Below are positions 16,580 to 26,877 of a DNA stretch of 51,973 nucleotides, one piece after another (the stretch's first letter is position 1; every line of letters begins with the position of its first letter). The DNA lies in NCBI RefSeq assembly GCF_004571075.1, contig NZ_SPQP01000028.1:1-51973 (forward strand), read 5' to 3'. The translations under genes and the position numbers were made by a program. The DNA comes from Blastococcus sp. TF02A-35 (GTDB taxonomy: Bacteria > Actinomycetota > Actinomycetes > Mycobacteriales > Geodermatophilaceae). The notes under the pieces are model-generated. The model searched no databases. It was not told the DNA's origin and saw nothing but the letters and a program-made list of their open reading frames with translations.

Positions 16580-16961
16580 CGCCTCCCCCTCCGCGGTGTG
16601 TGTGCCGGGCCACTCTCACCGATGAGGCCGCTCCCGTCGCCCGAAACCGGCCGATGGCGCCGCGAATACGTCATATGACCCGGCTGTCCCGTCATCCGAC
16701 GCACGCCGGGCAGCCGCAACGGTCGCCGCAGGGTGACGGATGGCTGTGTGCTCGGACACATGCGCCGCTCTAGGCTGCAGGCGACCGGATGACCCACTCG
16801 TTCGCGACGAGCCGGCGGGCCCCGTCCCGGGACGAGCAGGGCCTCACCCCACCCGGAGCCCGTCGTCCCCGGCCGGACGCCACCGCGAGCCGACCACCGG
16901 CCACCAGGCCCTGGGCCGGCCCCACCGGCCCGCAGAAGCGACACCCGATGAATGGACGGAC
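16580..16961. other. Divergent regulatory region of 382 bases between the MFS gene and gcvT1
   Basis: It contains the gcvT1 promoter (-10 TAGGCT at 16771-16776), two CGTCA-type sites and the inverted repeat TGTGT-N6-ACACA (16745-16760) near the -35. The transcript leader from about 16783 to 16961 is about 180 bases, GC-rich and long compared with neighbouring genes. I do not recognise a riboswitch in it. The gcvT1 frame is open through the leader back to 16740, but similarity to demethylases begins only at 16962. Confidence 0.5.
16668..16702 (+). promoter_or_regulatory. Two CGTCA-type activator-like sites upstream of gcvT1
   Basis: Site 1 is ACGTCA-TA-TGACCC (centre 16674.5; GTCATATGAC within it is a perfect 10-bp palindrome). 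Site 2 is CCGTCA-TC-CGACGC (centre 16695.5). The sites are 21 bp apart, two helical turns, and site 2 is centred 75.5 bp before the first base of the -10 TAGGCT at 16771. The same spacing occurs at the ferredoxin, gcvT2 and lig-operon promoters. Confidence 0.55.
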
Positions 16962-18362
16962 ATGACCGCGAAGAACCTCCAGGAACTCCTCGACCAGAGC
17001 GGCGACACGGTCGGGCTGCTGCGGAACTCCCAGCTGGGCGCCTACATCTACCCGGTGGTCCCCTCGGAGTTCACGAACTGGCGGCGGGAGCAGAAGGCGT
17101 GGCAGCAGACCGCCGTGCTCTTCGACCAGTCGCACCACATGTTCAACCTGTTCATCAAGGGCCCGGACGCGCTCAAGCTGATCTCCGACACCGGCATCAA
17201 CAGCGTGGCCAACTTCCCGGTGAACATGGCCAAGCAGTTCGTCCCGGTCACCCCGGCCGGCAACGTCATCGGCGACGGCATCCTCTTCCACCTCGACGAG
17301 GACGAGTTCGTCTACGTCGGCCGCGCCCCCGGCGCCAGCTGGCTGCAGTTCCAGGGCGAGACCGGCGGCTACGACGTCGAGATCCGCAACGACCCCCGGT
17401 CCCCCTCGCGGCCCTACGGCAAGGCCGTGACCCGCGACCTGTGGCGCTTCCAGATCCAGGGCCCGAACGCCTGGCCCATCATCGAGAAGCTCAACGGCGG
17501 CACCGTCGAGCAGCTGAAGTTCTTCCGCATGGGCGAGATGACCATCGCCGGCGAGCGCGTCCGCACCCTGCGCCACGGCATGGCCGGCGCCCCGGGCCTG
17601 GAGATCTGGGGCCCGTACGAGAGCTACGACCGGATCCGCGAGGCCATCCTCGAGGCCGGCCGCGAGTTCGGGATGGAGCCGGTGGGCTCGCGCGCCTACT
17701 CGACCAACACCCTCGAGTCGGGCTGGATCCCCTCGCCGCTGCCGGCGATCTACACCGGTGAGGAGCTGCGCCCCTACCGCGAGTGGCTCGGCGCCGACAG
17801 CTACGAGGCCACCAACGCCATCGCCGGCAGCTTCGTGTCCGACGACATCGAGGACTACTACACCAACCCGTGGGAGCTGGGCTACGGCTCCTTCGTGAAG
17901 TTCGACCACGACTTCATCGGCCGGGACGCCCTCGAGGCCCTCGACAAGGACGCCCAGCGCCGCAAGGTGACGCTGGAGTGGAACTCCGACGACCTGGCCA
18001 AGCTGCTCTCCTCCCCTGTCGAGGGCGCGAAGTACCAGTTCTTCGACCTGCCGAACTCCAACTACGGGTCGTCGAACTTCGACAAGGTCATCGACGCCGA
18101 CGGCACCGTCCTGGGCGTCTCGATGTTCACCGGCATCTCCGCCAACGAGCAGAAGGGCCTCTCGCTGGCCACCATCAGCCCCGACGTGCCGCACGGCGCC
18201 GAGGTGCGCGTGGTCTGGGGCGAGCCCGACGGCGGCAGCAAGAAGACCACCGTCGAGCCGCACGAGCAGTTCGAGGTGCGCGCCATCGTCAGCCCGGTCC
18301 CCTACGCCAAGATGGCGCGGGAGACCTACCAGGGCGGCTGGCGCACCACCGGCAAGGCCTGA
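16962..18362 (+). CDS. GcvT-family tetrahydrofolate-dependent aryl-O-demethylase (LigM/DesA-like), paralogue 1
   Basis: A 466-residue protein, close to the roughly 470 residues of LigM and DesA and much longer than the GcvT glycine-cleavage protein. It contains the aminomethyltransferase fold with [17 protein letters not shown], a central [20 protein letters not shown] and a C-terminal GcvT-C barrel. Such enzymes move the methyl group of vanillate, syringate or 3-O-methylgallate onto THF, giving 5-methyl-THF and the free phenol. The ATG at 16962 is weakly preceded by GGACGGAC; an in-frame extension to 16740 has no homology. Which methoxyaromatic acid it prefers cannot be told from sequence. 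Confidence 0.88.
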
Positions 18363-18401
18363 CACCAGGCCGGCCGCACCGTCTGATCGCTGATCCGGCA
18401 C

Positions 18402-18447
18402 GGGCCGGGTCGCCCCCGCGGGTACCTCCGCGGCGGTGGCCCGGCCC
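18402..18447 (+). terminator. Possible terminator hairpin after gcvT1
   Basis: GGGCCGGG at 18402-18409 pairs with CCCGGCCC at 18440-18447, and the loop contains a nested CCGCGG pair (18415-18432 region). There is no U-tract, so it would be an intrinsic-like or processing hairpin only. It lies 40 bases after the stop at 18362. Confidence 0.35.
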
Positions 18448-18590
18448 TCGCCGTCCCGGCGGCCGGGCCGTCCCGGCGGAGGCACCCACGGACGAGGGAC
18501 GTCGTCCCCGAGGGACCGGGAGCCGCTGAGCGGTGCGCCACAATGGTGGCGCCGGTCACCGGCGGGACCGGTGGTGAGAGGAGGAGCGGG

Positions 18591-25314: not shown

Positions 25315-25405
25315 GCTACGTCAGGTGTCGTAGCAGGGGCACGCTCCGGCGCCGACGGGATGCGTCATCCGCGCGATCCCGCGGGCCGCCCGCGCTCCCT
25401 ACGTT
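25315..25405 (+). promoter_or_regulatory. gcvT2 promoter region with CGTCA-type sites
   Basis: The palindrome GCTACGTCAGGTGTCGTAGC (25315-25334) contains ACGTCA-GG-TGTCGT, centred at 25324.5, that is 75.5 bp before the -10 TACGTT (25400-25405). A second element GGATG-CGT-CATCC (25358-25370) holds GCGTCA. GATCCC (25375-25380) could be the -35. TACGTT is seven bases before the ATG at 25413, so the mRNA is probably leaderless. Confidence 0.55.
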
Positions 25406-25412
25406 GTGGACC

Positions 25413-26774
25413 ATGTCGTCCGAGTCGCTGGCCGCCGCCCTCGCCCGAGCCGGGAGCCCGGTCGAGCTCCTCCGGAACCTGGGCTTCCCGCCGAGCACCT
25501 TCCCGGTGCGCCCGGAGTTCACGAACTGGCGCGCGGAGCAGCGGTCGTGGACGGAGACCTGCGCCCTGCTCGACCAGTCCCACCACATGACCGACCTGTT
25601 CGTCTCCGGCCCCGACGCCCTGCGGCTGCTCAGCGACGTCGGCGTCAACACCTTCGCGGGCTTCGGCGTCGGCAGGGCCAAGCAGTTCGTCGCGGTGGAC
25701 CCCGGCGGCCACCTCATCGGCGACGCGATCCTCTTCCACCTGGAGGAGGAGCTGTTCGACCTGGTCGGGCACCCCATGGTCCTGGACTGGGTCACCTTCC
25801 ACCTCGAGCGCGGCGGCTACCGCGCCACCGCCGAGCGCGACGACAACTCCGCGGTGCGGCGGTCCGGTCCGCCGCGGCTCTACCGGTACGAGCTGCAGGG
25901 CCCCACCGCCGCTGCGCTGGTGGAGCAGGTGAGCGGCGCCCCGCTGCCGGACGTCAGGTTCTTCGGCATGGCCGAGTTCACCATCGCCGGCCGGCGCGTC
26001 CGCGGGCTGCGGCACGGCATGGCCGGGCAGCCCGGCTTCGAGCTCTTCGGCCCCTGGGAGGACGGCGACGCCGTCCTGTCCGCGCTGCTCGAGGCCGGCG
26101 CCGACCACGGCCTCGTGCGGGTCGGCGCCAAGGCGTACTCGACGGCCAACCTGGAGTCCGGCTGGGTCCCCGCCCCGCTGCCCGCCCTCTTCTCCGACCA
26201 CCCCCTCGTGCAGGAGTACCGGGAGTGGCTGCCGGTGGCCCGGGTCGGCTCGGTCGGCGGCAGCATGGACTCCGCCGACATCGCCGACTACCTCCTCACG
26301 CCCTACGAGGTGGGCTACGGCAGGACGGTGCGGTTCGACCACGAGTTCATCGGCCGCGAGGCCCTCGAGCGGATGGCCCAGGCGCCGTCGCGCACCAAGG
26401 TGACCCTGGTGTGGGACGCCGACGACGTGGCCGCCGCCCTCGGCTCGCTGTTCCGGCCGGGCCCCGGCGCGAAGTTCATGGACCTGCCGAAGATCCGGTA
26501 CGCCACCCACCACGAGGACAAGGTGCTGCGGGACGGCCGGCAGGTCGGCATCTCCCTGGACTGCGGGTACCTCGCCAACGAGCGGGCGATGGTCTCCCTC
26601 GCGGTGGTCGAGCCGGAGGTCGCCGTCCCCGGCACCGAGGTGACGGTGCTCTGGGGCGAGCGGCCGGTCTCGGCCAAGCCCGCCGTCGAGGAGCACCGCC
26701 AGGTGGAGATCCGCGCGACCGTCGCACCGGTCCCCTTCGTGGACTTCGCCCGCGAGCGGTACCGGGGCCGGTGA
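25413..26774 (+). CDS. GcvT-family tetrahydrofolate-dependent aryl-O-demethylase, paralogue 2
   Basis: A 453-residue homologue of the protein at 16962, with the same landmarks (DQSHHMTDLFVSGPDAL, RRVRGLRHGMAGQPGFELFGP, KAYSTANLESGWVPAPLP). The two are related over their whole length but clearly diverged, as are LigM and DesA, which take vanillate/3-O-methylgallate and syringate respectively. A division of labour such as syringate to 3-O-methylgallate and then to gallate is therefore plausible. The ATG at 25413 follows the -10 at leaderless distance. The stop is 157 bases before the lig operon. Confidence 0.87.
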   Translation: MSSESLAAALARAGSPVELLRNLGFPPSTFPVRPEFTNWRAEQRSWTETCALLDQSHHMTDLFVSGPDALRLLSDVGVNTFAGFGVGRAKQFVAVDPGGHLIGDAILFHLEEELFDLVGHPMVLDWVTFHLERGGYRATAERDDNSAVRRSGPPRLYRYELQGPTAAALVEQVSGAPLPDVRFFGMAEFTIAGRRVRGLRHGMAGQPGFELFGPWEDGDAVLSALLEAGADHGLVRVGAKAYSTANLESGWVPAPLPALFSDHPLVQEYREWLPVARVGSVGGSMDSADIADYLLTPYEVGYGRTVRFDHEFIGREALERMAQAPSRTKVTLVWDADDVAAALGSLFRPGPGAKFMDLPKIRYATHHEDKVLRDGRQVGISLDCGYLANERAMVSLAVVEPEVAVPGTEVTVLWGERPVSAKPAVEEHRQVEIRATVAPVPFVDFARERYRGR

Positions 26775-26788
26775 GCCCCCGGTGGCCC

Positions 26789-26877
26789 ACGACAGATGAC
26801 GTACACCGCCCGCGCGTCATCGGCGGCGACGGCGGTGACATCGCGCCGATCCACCGCCGTGCCGCCCTCCGTAGCGT
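26789..26877 (+). promoter_or_regulatory. Promoter and CGTCA-type site of the lig-folate operon
   Basis: Read on the minus strand, ACGTCA-TC-TGTCGT (26802-26789) is centred at 26795.5, 76.5 bp before the -10 TAGCGT (26872-26877). A further half site GCGTCA lies at 26814-26819. GATCCA (26848-26853) with an 18-base spacer is the -35 candidate. The leader to the ATG at 26932 is about 50 bases and has CTGGAGGA. Confidence 0.55.

Follow-up and report, generated by a model that had tools for sequence, protein, structure and literature searches.

The window analysed here, a stretch of 51,973 nucleotides that makes up the whole of contig C22 in the 3.93-Mb draft genome of Blastococcus sp. TF02A-35, carries genes for tetrahydrofolate (THF)-dependent O-demethylases together with genes of ring cleavage and folate metabolism. 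We describe here a 16-bp palindrome that recurs at a fixed distance upstream of the predicted -10 boxes of these genes, and we consider which protein is most likely to bind it. On the forward strand, gcvT1 (ligM; 16962-18362) encodes a LigM-type vanillate/3-O-methylgallate O-demethylase, which passes the equivalog cutoff of NCBIfam model NF047885 (898 bits vs 580). It is followed by the genes of a sensor histidine kinase with the Pfam domains PAS-GAF-HisKA_3-HATPase (18543-20210), a NarL/FixJ-type response regulator (RR; 20207-20869; Pfam Response_reg and GerE), a plant-type 2Fe-2S ferredoxin (21026-21319; Pfam Fer2, scanned as the open reading frame 20996-21319) and, downstream of the ferredoxin gene, an alpha/beta hydrolase (21345-22232). 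An IclR protein is encoded on the reverse strand (22243-23091), divergently from a reductase gene, as judged from its translation, and a P450 gene. Then comes gcvT2 (25413-26774, forward strand), whose product is a THF-dependent O-demethylase related to DesA and LigM; it scores under both NCBIfam cutoffs, namely 494 bits on NF047885 (cutoff 580) and 559 bits on NF047633, and hence does not reach the equivalog cutoff for the DesA syringate O-demethylase (559 vs 800 bits).

Downstream of gcvT2 lies a row of genes (26932-34503, forward strand) that we presume to be one operon from their shared strand and tight spacing, and that we call the lig-folate operon. By Pfam, it encodes an alpha/beta hydrolase, LigA, LigB, MTHFR, FolD, a PabB-PabC-like protein (chorismate-binding and aminotransferase IV domains), an FTCD_C protein and FolP. 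The gene purU for a formyltetrahydrofolate deformylase, which passes the equivalog cutoff of TIGR00655 (323 bits vs 286), stands apart on the reverse strand (3194-4066); this enzyme completes the recycling of folate.

A 16-bp palindrome at a fixed distance from the -10 box

The initial annotation had pointed out that four promoters of this locus share a CGTCA-type palindrome at a constant distance from the -10 box, and this observation is confirmed in its letters and coordinates. The palindromes, all taken on the forward strand, are centred at 16695.5 for gcvT1 (16688-16703), at 20881.5 for the ferredoxin operon (20874-20889), at 25324.5 for gcvT2 (TACGTCAGGTGTCGTA, 25317-25332) and at 26795.5 for the lig-folate operon (CACGACAGATGACGTA, 26788-26803), and the first bases of the predicted -10 boxes, which are of the TAnnnT type, follow at 75.5, 76.5, 75.5 and 76.5 bp, respectively. 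These boxes read TAGGCT (16771-16776, at a conserved position), TAGCGT (20958-20963), TACGTT (25400-25405) and TAGCGT (26872-26877). The site has the form of a 7-2-7 palindrome, TACGTCA-NN-TGACGTA; that is, two inverted heptamers are separated by a 2-bp spacer, as in TACGTCA-GG-TGTCGTA at gcvT2, and a perfect copy, TACGTCATATGACGTA, is present in the stretch L096. A GATCC core is also common to three of the promoters, as had been claimed, whereas the gap from it to the -10 box, given as 18 or 19 nt, was counted as 19 (ferredoxin), 20 (gcvT2) and 19 nt (lig). By eye, no canonical -35 element (TTGACA-like) was seen in the palindrome-bearing promoters.

A weaker copy of the palindrome lies 30.5-31.5 bp before each -10 box. 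This proximal site is centred at 16739.5 for gcvT1 (16732-16747, 31.5 bp), at 20927.5 for the ferredoxin operon (20920-20935, 30.5 bp), at 25368.5 for gcvT2 (25361-25376, 31.5 bp) and at 26841.5 for the lig-folate operon (26834-26849, 30.5 bp), so that the distal and proximal sites in the window are spaced by 44-46 bp, about four helical turns. In a leave-one-out scoring, in which the matrix for each promoter type came from the other three types, the best two mean offsets were 76.5 and 30.5 for the ferredoxin operon, 75.5 and 31.5 for gcvT2, and 30.5 and 76.5 for the lig-folate operon, at which the proximal offset was thus the top-scoring one; at gcvT1 it ranked just fifth. Averaged over 35 promoters that came from none of the training genomes, the score again had its maxima at 76.5 and 30.5, of which only the latter is independent, because this set was chosen for having the distal site. 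The gcvT1 and ferredoxin promoters each have a further copy, spaced from the distal site by 21 and 23 bp, respectively. The one at gcvT1 (TACGTCATATGACCCG, 16667-16682, centred at 16674.5), which had been noticed before, is real and kept in relatives, and its offset of 96.5 is the top-scoring one in the orthologues; the one at the ferredoxin operon is an inverted copy (20897-20912, centred at 20904.5, 53.5 bp before the -10 box, fourth in rank among the offsets) and is not among the window matches scoring at least 11 bits.

Two side observations concern individual promoters. Between the -10 box and the ATG of gcvT2 there are 7 nt in the window and in L041, and 69-90 nt in L038, L040 and L042; the 7-nt gap suggests that the gcvT2 transcript may be leaderless, in which case the two sites would be centred at -88.5 and -44.5. 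At gcvT1, a palindrome TGTG-N8-CACA (16745-16760) is located between the proximal site and the -10 box and is largely conserved in the Blastococcus orthologues; it looks CRP/GlxR-like.

A fifth promoter came to light when the four promoter types were combined into a 99-position model and 23 genomes of the genus were searched with it. The 37 matches listed at E <= 2.7e-4 all lay on contigs with the cluster, in the nine RR-bearing genomes, and the best match among the 14 genomes without the RR was at 8.2e-4. Scoring in this search covered the best 150 of the roughly 13,000-17,600 candidates that a first look gave per genome, so that weaker targets may have escaped it and the target list may be incomplete. 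In the genome of the window, the next match after the four promoters (E 0.005) was a region upstream of purU (4157-4231, reverse strand), with a distal site (TACGTCGATTGTCGCG, 4215-4230, centred at 4222.5) 75.5 bp before a predicted -10 box, TACGTT (4142-4147), and a proximal CGTCA-TC site, placed by eye, 30.5 bp before the same box (4170-4185, centred at 4177.5). This promoter recurs at 75.5 or 76.5 bp in five of the six relatives' stretches that were retrieved for this match (L173-L177), while the sixth, L172, has folP. The equivalent promoter in G018 (E 1.6e-8, a distal site of 12.1 bits and a -10 box at 77.5 bp) is upstream of folP; this gene (292 codons, 72% identical) lies ~15 kb from gcvT1, and no closer folP was found in the genome, which is 91% complete. 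The regulon predicted in the genome of the window would therefore comprise at least five promoters: namely, those of gcvT1 with the kinase and RR genes, the ferredoxin and hydrolase genes, gcvT2, the ligAB-folate genes and purU.

Specificity and conservation of the sites

Short words were of little use in judging the specificity of the motif. The exact core CGTCANNTGTCG occurs six times in the genome, three of these in the window, but with two mismatches allowed the window has fewer copies than its shuffled versions do (50 vs a mean of 89), and the looser core CGWCRRATGWCG is about as common without the cluster (a mean of 6.4 per genome in 14 genomes) as with it (8.0 in the nine cluster genomes). 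We therefore dropped the scans with short cores as evidence: the short word alone proves little, whereas the 16-bp matrix combined with the distance to the -10 box is telling. The exact CGTCANNTGTCG matches on contigs C13 and C14 have another architecture, with the one on C14 overlapping TAGCGT and that on C13 ending 16 nt before such a box.

A symmetrised 16-bp matrix was built from 31 sites in nine Blastococcus genomes and applied to 23 RR-orthologue loci (436 kb) outside the training set, from which L080 and L081 had been excluded as copies of training genomes. The loci came from Blastococcus, Modestobacter, Geodermatophilus, a further member of Geodermatophilaceae, Quadrisphaera, Mycobacterium, Streptomyces, a metagenome-assembled genome of Micromonosporaceae, Nonomuraea, Pseudonocardia, Planosporangium, Halopolyspora, Qaidamihabitans and Phytoactinopolyspora. 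All 23 were hit, with 53 matches at 16 bits or more, 29 of which had a TA[GC][CG][GT]T box at 74.5-77.5 bp. By contrast, 31 high-GC control RR loci (493 kb; 24 lower-GC loci of the original 55 had been removed before the count) gave no match at 16 bits and three at 14 bits, none of them with a -10 box, and twenty Markov resamples gave 1.0 match on average and four at most, also without a -10 box. The best matrix score in 23 loci of RR paralogues was 13.6 bits. At the 15 loci outside Geodermatophilaceae, a -10-like box (of a slightly looser pattern) was found at the expected distance for 19 of the 38 matches at 14 bits. The scans do not show a motif that is both common and unlinked to promoters.

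In the 31 promoter instances of the nine training genomes, the distal centre is 74.5-77.5 bp from the -10 box, with 7-192 nt between this box and the ATG. Because the -10 box had been sought 70-80 bp away when these instances were selected, a histogram of distances within 150 bp on either side is a cleaner test of the geometry; of 39 distances to TA[GC][CG][GT]T, 11 were 75.5 and 17 were 76.5 bp, and a minor group was found at 53.5-54.5 bp (3+3). The same fixed distance led us to set aside readings of the palindrome as a terminator or hairpin.

The RR is present with at least 87% identity in eight of the 22 other genomes of the genus, and so is the cluster in all eight. Each of the nine genomes has the site ahead of gcvT1 (on a separate stretch, L178, in G006), ahead of the ferredoxin operon and ahead of the hydrolase-lig operon, and gcvT2 has it in five of the eight genomes that possess this gene. 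It is absent where gcvT2 starts 29 bp behind the P450 gene (L037) or follows gcvT1 with gaps of 186 and 254 bp (L043 and L044); the gcvT2 of the window likewise follows the P450 gene, at 104 bp, yet has the site. Where the MTHFR-folD genes and the kinase gene face each other, a site is present between them. Taking folP in G018, MTHFR-folD and gcvT2 together, sites and genes move together. The site between the MTHFR and kinase genes is TACGTCAATCGTCG-like and was noticed in L043, L044, L082-L086 and L089, with weaker variants in L082-L084 and L086; no TAnnnT stands 74.5-77.5 bp from it in either direction, and this divergent pair may follow another spacing rule. In other families, sites were found near genes for aldehyde dehydrogenases and shikimate-type transporters; the ten proteins examined near such sites were five dehydrogenases, four transporters and one relative of DesA/LigM.

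The candidate regulator and its rivals

The RR encoded in the cluster has a receiver domain (PF00072, 1e-25) and a LuxR/GerE helix-turn-helix domain (PF00196, 8e-19) and is hence a regulator of the NarL/FixJ type. Its relatives of solved structure include VraR (5hev, 6e-47) and NarL (1a04, 1e-38) and also ChrA, DevR and DesR among others; the closest by sequence is VraR (5hev, 7ve6 and 4gvp), a regulator of Firmicutes. The phosphoacceptor Asp64, which aligns with the Asp in the MDL/LDL segment of VraR and NarL, is found in 31 of 31 orthologues, and the recognition helix SERTARTHVS is identical in 30 of them, down to 60% overall identity, the exception being a single Thr-to-Ser exchange. A candidate cognate kinase (PAS-GAF-HisKA_3-HATPase) adjoins the RR and is present in eight Blastococcus relatives. 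Within the genus, the RR and LigM occur in the same nine of 23 genomes. In an order-level sample of 249 genomes, in which the best 12 candidates per genome were scored for the RR and the best nine for the IclR protein (cut-offs: LigM, at least 76%; RR, E <= 1e-66; IclR, E <= 1e-60; G088, with a 46% match, left out), the RR was found in 22 genomes, including all 17 with LigM, where 1.5 would be expected (p 3e-22, relatedness ignored). Given the 7-2-7 palindrome, the 17/17 co-occurrence with LigM and the near-invariant recognition helix, this NarL/VraR-type RR is the most likely protein to bind the palindrome.

The heptamer of NarL is TACYYMT, and the heptamer at this locus, TACGTCA, agrees with that consensus in the first three letters and has G in place of Y at the fourth; the site has a heptamer of its own and by this measure is not a NarL operator. 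DevR differs in its signal and its operator, and its sites are closely packed, whereas those described here are ~45 bp apart. In other respects, known systems offer close parallels. NarL activates ogt of E. coli from 7-2-7 sites at -44.5 and -77.5 (PMC7419079). The likeness to NarX-NarL at ogt thus extends to a two-component regulator of the same family, 7-2-7 palindromes and two sites per promoter, and the proximal ogt site, which abuts the -35 region, is where the proximal site of gcvT2 would lie if its transcript is leaderless (PMC7419079); unlike at ogt, the distal site here is about one helical turn further up, and the genes concern aromatic catabolism instead of a nitrate response. DevR/DosR of Mycobacterium tuberculosis, also of the NarL subfamily, binds cooperatively to a primary site and to a secondary one of low affinity, and the site nearer to the promoter commonly overlaps the -35 element (PMC3029386). 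BldM of Streptomyces is a further RR in an actinomycete with a 16-bp palindrome (consensus TCACcCgnncGgGTGA), to which it is proposed to bind as a homodimer, but it is an orphan developmental regulator (PMC4125116). The functional counterpart is DesR of Sphingobium SYK-6, which represses ligM and desB for the O-demethylation of vanillate and syringate, but it belongs to the MarR family and its operators, GTTTGTGTCACATAC (desB, +23 to +37) and GTTTGTGTAACATAC (ligM, -40 to -26), are unrelated (PMC6888825). Neither these operators nor the DesR inverted repeat GTTTGTGTMACATAC had a match in the window at up to three mismatches. The DesR operators were hence excluded as the present motif by this search, and those of BldM and NarL by eye against their consensus.

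The best reading of a site near -87, as the initial annotation had already suggested, is a fixed-position operator for an activator. More specifically, we propose, with a probability of about 0.83, that the palindrome is the operator of the pair of the PAS-GAF kinase and the NarL/VraR-type RR (18543-20869), which would activate the five promoters. The signal sensed by the kinase would probably be a methoxylated aromatic acid or a compound formed from it, and the kinase would phosphorylate the RR at Asp64; a dimer of the RR would then bind the strong palindrome centred at about -88 and help a second dimer onto the weaker, proximal copy (~-43), which would adjoin or cover the -35 region. Together, the two dimers would bring RNA polymerase to promoters with a -10 box but, by eye, no canonical -35 element. 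Since the five promoters serve the demethylases, the ligAB-folate operon and purU, the pair would switch on demethylation and ring cleavage together with the replenishment of the THF pool, as one unit. Sites, spacing, conservation and co-occurrence are read from the sequences; the binding protein, the sign of regulation, the phosphorylation, the ligand, the transcript starts and the operon extents are inferred.

The IclR protein had been named as a second candidate and, being encoded inside the cluster, might bind the palindrome and activate or repress the promoters. The co-occurrence of the RR with LigM in 17 of 17 genomes favours the RR, without by itself deciding against the IclR protein, which has a match in 15 of the same 17 genomes (p 5e-13). 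Two genomes, G012 (L039) and G241, however, have LigM and good sites without an IclR match at the above cut-off among the nine candidates scored per genome, and the 34 of 249 genomes with an IclR match include 19 without LigM. Furthermore, the IclR gene and the reductase and P450 genes, the latter two without a site, are all together in six of the nine Blastococcus clusters and all missing from the other three, the IclR gene stands on another contig than the cluster in several genomes (e.g., G011, G166 and G195), and no site scoring at least 11 was found in the IclR-reductase region. The IclR protein thus probably serves the divergent reductase-P450 module, and we regard it as improbable that it binds the palindrome; of the two candidates, the RR is clearly preferred. 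Another reading keeps the kinase-RR pair as the binder but has it mainly repress, to be released by the substrate. The sign of regulation is not given by sequence alone, and some NarL sites are repressing; the sites here, however, are upstream, at about -88 and -43, and not over the -10 box or the start, which, with no TTGACA-like -35 element seen by eye, suits activation, so that we give repression no better a chance than binding by IclR. Even less probable is a factor encoded elsewhere, with the RR a mere passenger of the cluster: the RR gene adjoins a target promoter, and linkage alone could thus account for part of the co-occurrence, but RR and LigM go together in 17 of 17 genomes, from families in which the gene order is rearranged, the recognition helix is nearly invariant, and the 7-2-7 geometry fits the NarL family.

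Besides the frequency of IclR matches, several results weigh against activation of all these promoters by the kinase-RR pair. The strict -10 pattern is missing at the expected distance in 24 of the 53 strong matches, and in the leave-one-out scoring the top offsets at gcvT1 are 96.5 and 75.5, with 31.5 fifth. In L043 and L044, both sides of the site between the MTHFR and kinase genes were searched for a TAnnnT box at 74.5-77.5 bp, and none was found. In the order-level sample, no match of at least 14 bits was found in six of 19 RR loci (3.6 kb each) and in eight of 30 LigM/DesA-type loci (about 4.4 kb each). Larger stretches of these genomes gave weaker sites alone, with the right spacing, in G148 and G247 (13.4 and 11.3 bits), an 18.1-bit site without a -10 box in G159, and in G079 neither a match of 14 bits nor one with a -10 box; they also gave a 14.7-bit site with a -10 box in G146, sites in both stretches of G241, one of them with a -10 box, and several in G256. 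G079 has a 61% RR beside a 30% kinase and no pathway genes, and its regulator is probably not an orthologue. Finally, no palindrome site was recognised in the window scan at the lower-pathway genes of 5.0-9.4 kb.

Neighbouring genes and a possible coupling to folate

The region just mentioned (5033-9420, reverse strand) contains amidohydrolase and PrpF-type genes, which are plausible for the lower steps of gallate/protocatechuate 4,5-cleavage. Next to it, genes for a GntR-FCD regulator and a branched-chain-type ABC transporter (9593-13689, reverse strand) could serve the import of aromatic acids under separate control. The IclR gene and the divergent reductase gene (22243-24047) have predicted starts that overlap or abut, and they form part of a separable P450 module inside the cluster. 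The 2Fe-2S ferredoxin gene is near ligAB in several relatives; presumably, its product might reactivate the extradiol dioxygenase in the manner of XylT.

The genome of the window has three FolP-type genes, namely that of the cluster (33511-34503), G000:C18:7540-8373 and G000:C13:104124-105008, the latter two encoding proteins 68% and 43% identical to the cluster FolP. With two further FolP genes in the genome, the cluster FolP would be extra to housekeeping.

A literature search, from which subscription journals were mostly missing, gave no paper on this operator or regulator for THF-dependent demethylase genes, an absence that is weak evidence. The present analysis names a candidate regulator, defines its proposed operator as an exact 16-bp sequence at a constant distance from the -10 box, and lists targets through which demethylation is linked to the recycling and synthesis of folate. 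O-demethylation is often a key bottleneck in the bacterial use of lignin aromatics (PMC6021390), and the predicted system could serve for aromatic-responsive expression.

In a wider sense, one two-component system in many actinomycete families may sense a methoxyaromatic signal and couple the catabolism of lignin methoxyl groups to the size of the folate pool, an idea to which we give even odds. It would fit with the same operator driving the demethylases, the oxidation of the methyl group (MTHFR, FolD and PurU) and the synthesis of folate (the PabB-PabC-like protein and FolP), and with the operator being found again where the folate genes stand apart. If this is true, folate synthesis in these bacteria would be induced by substrate for the sake of catabolism, beyond its housekeeping role.

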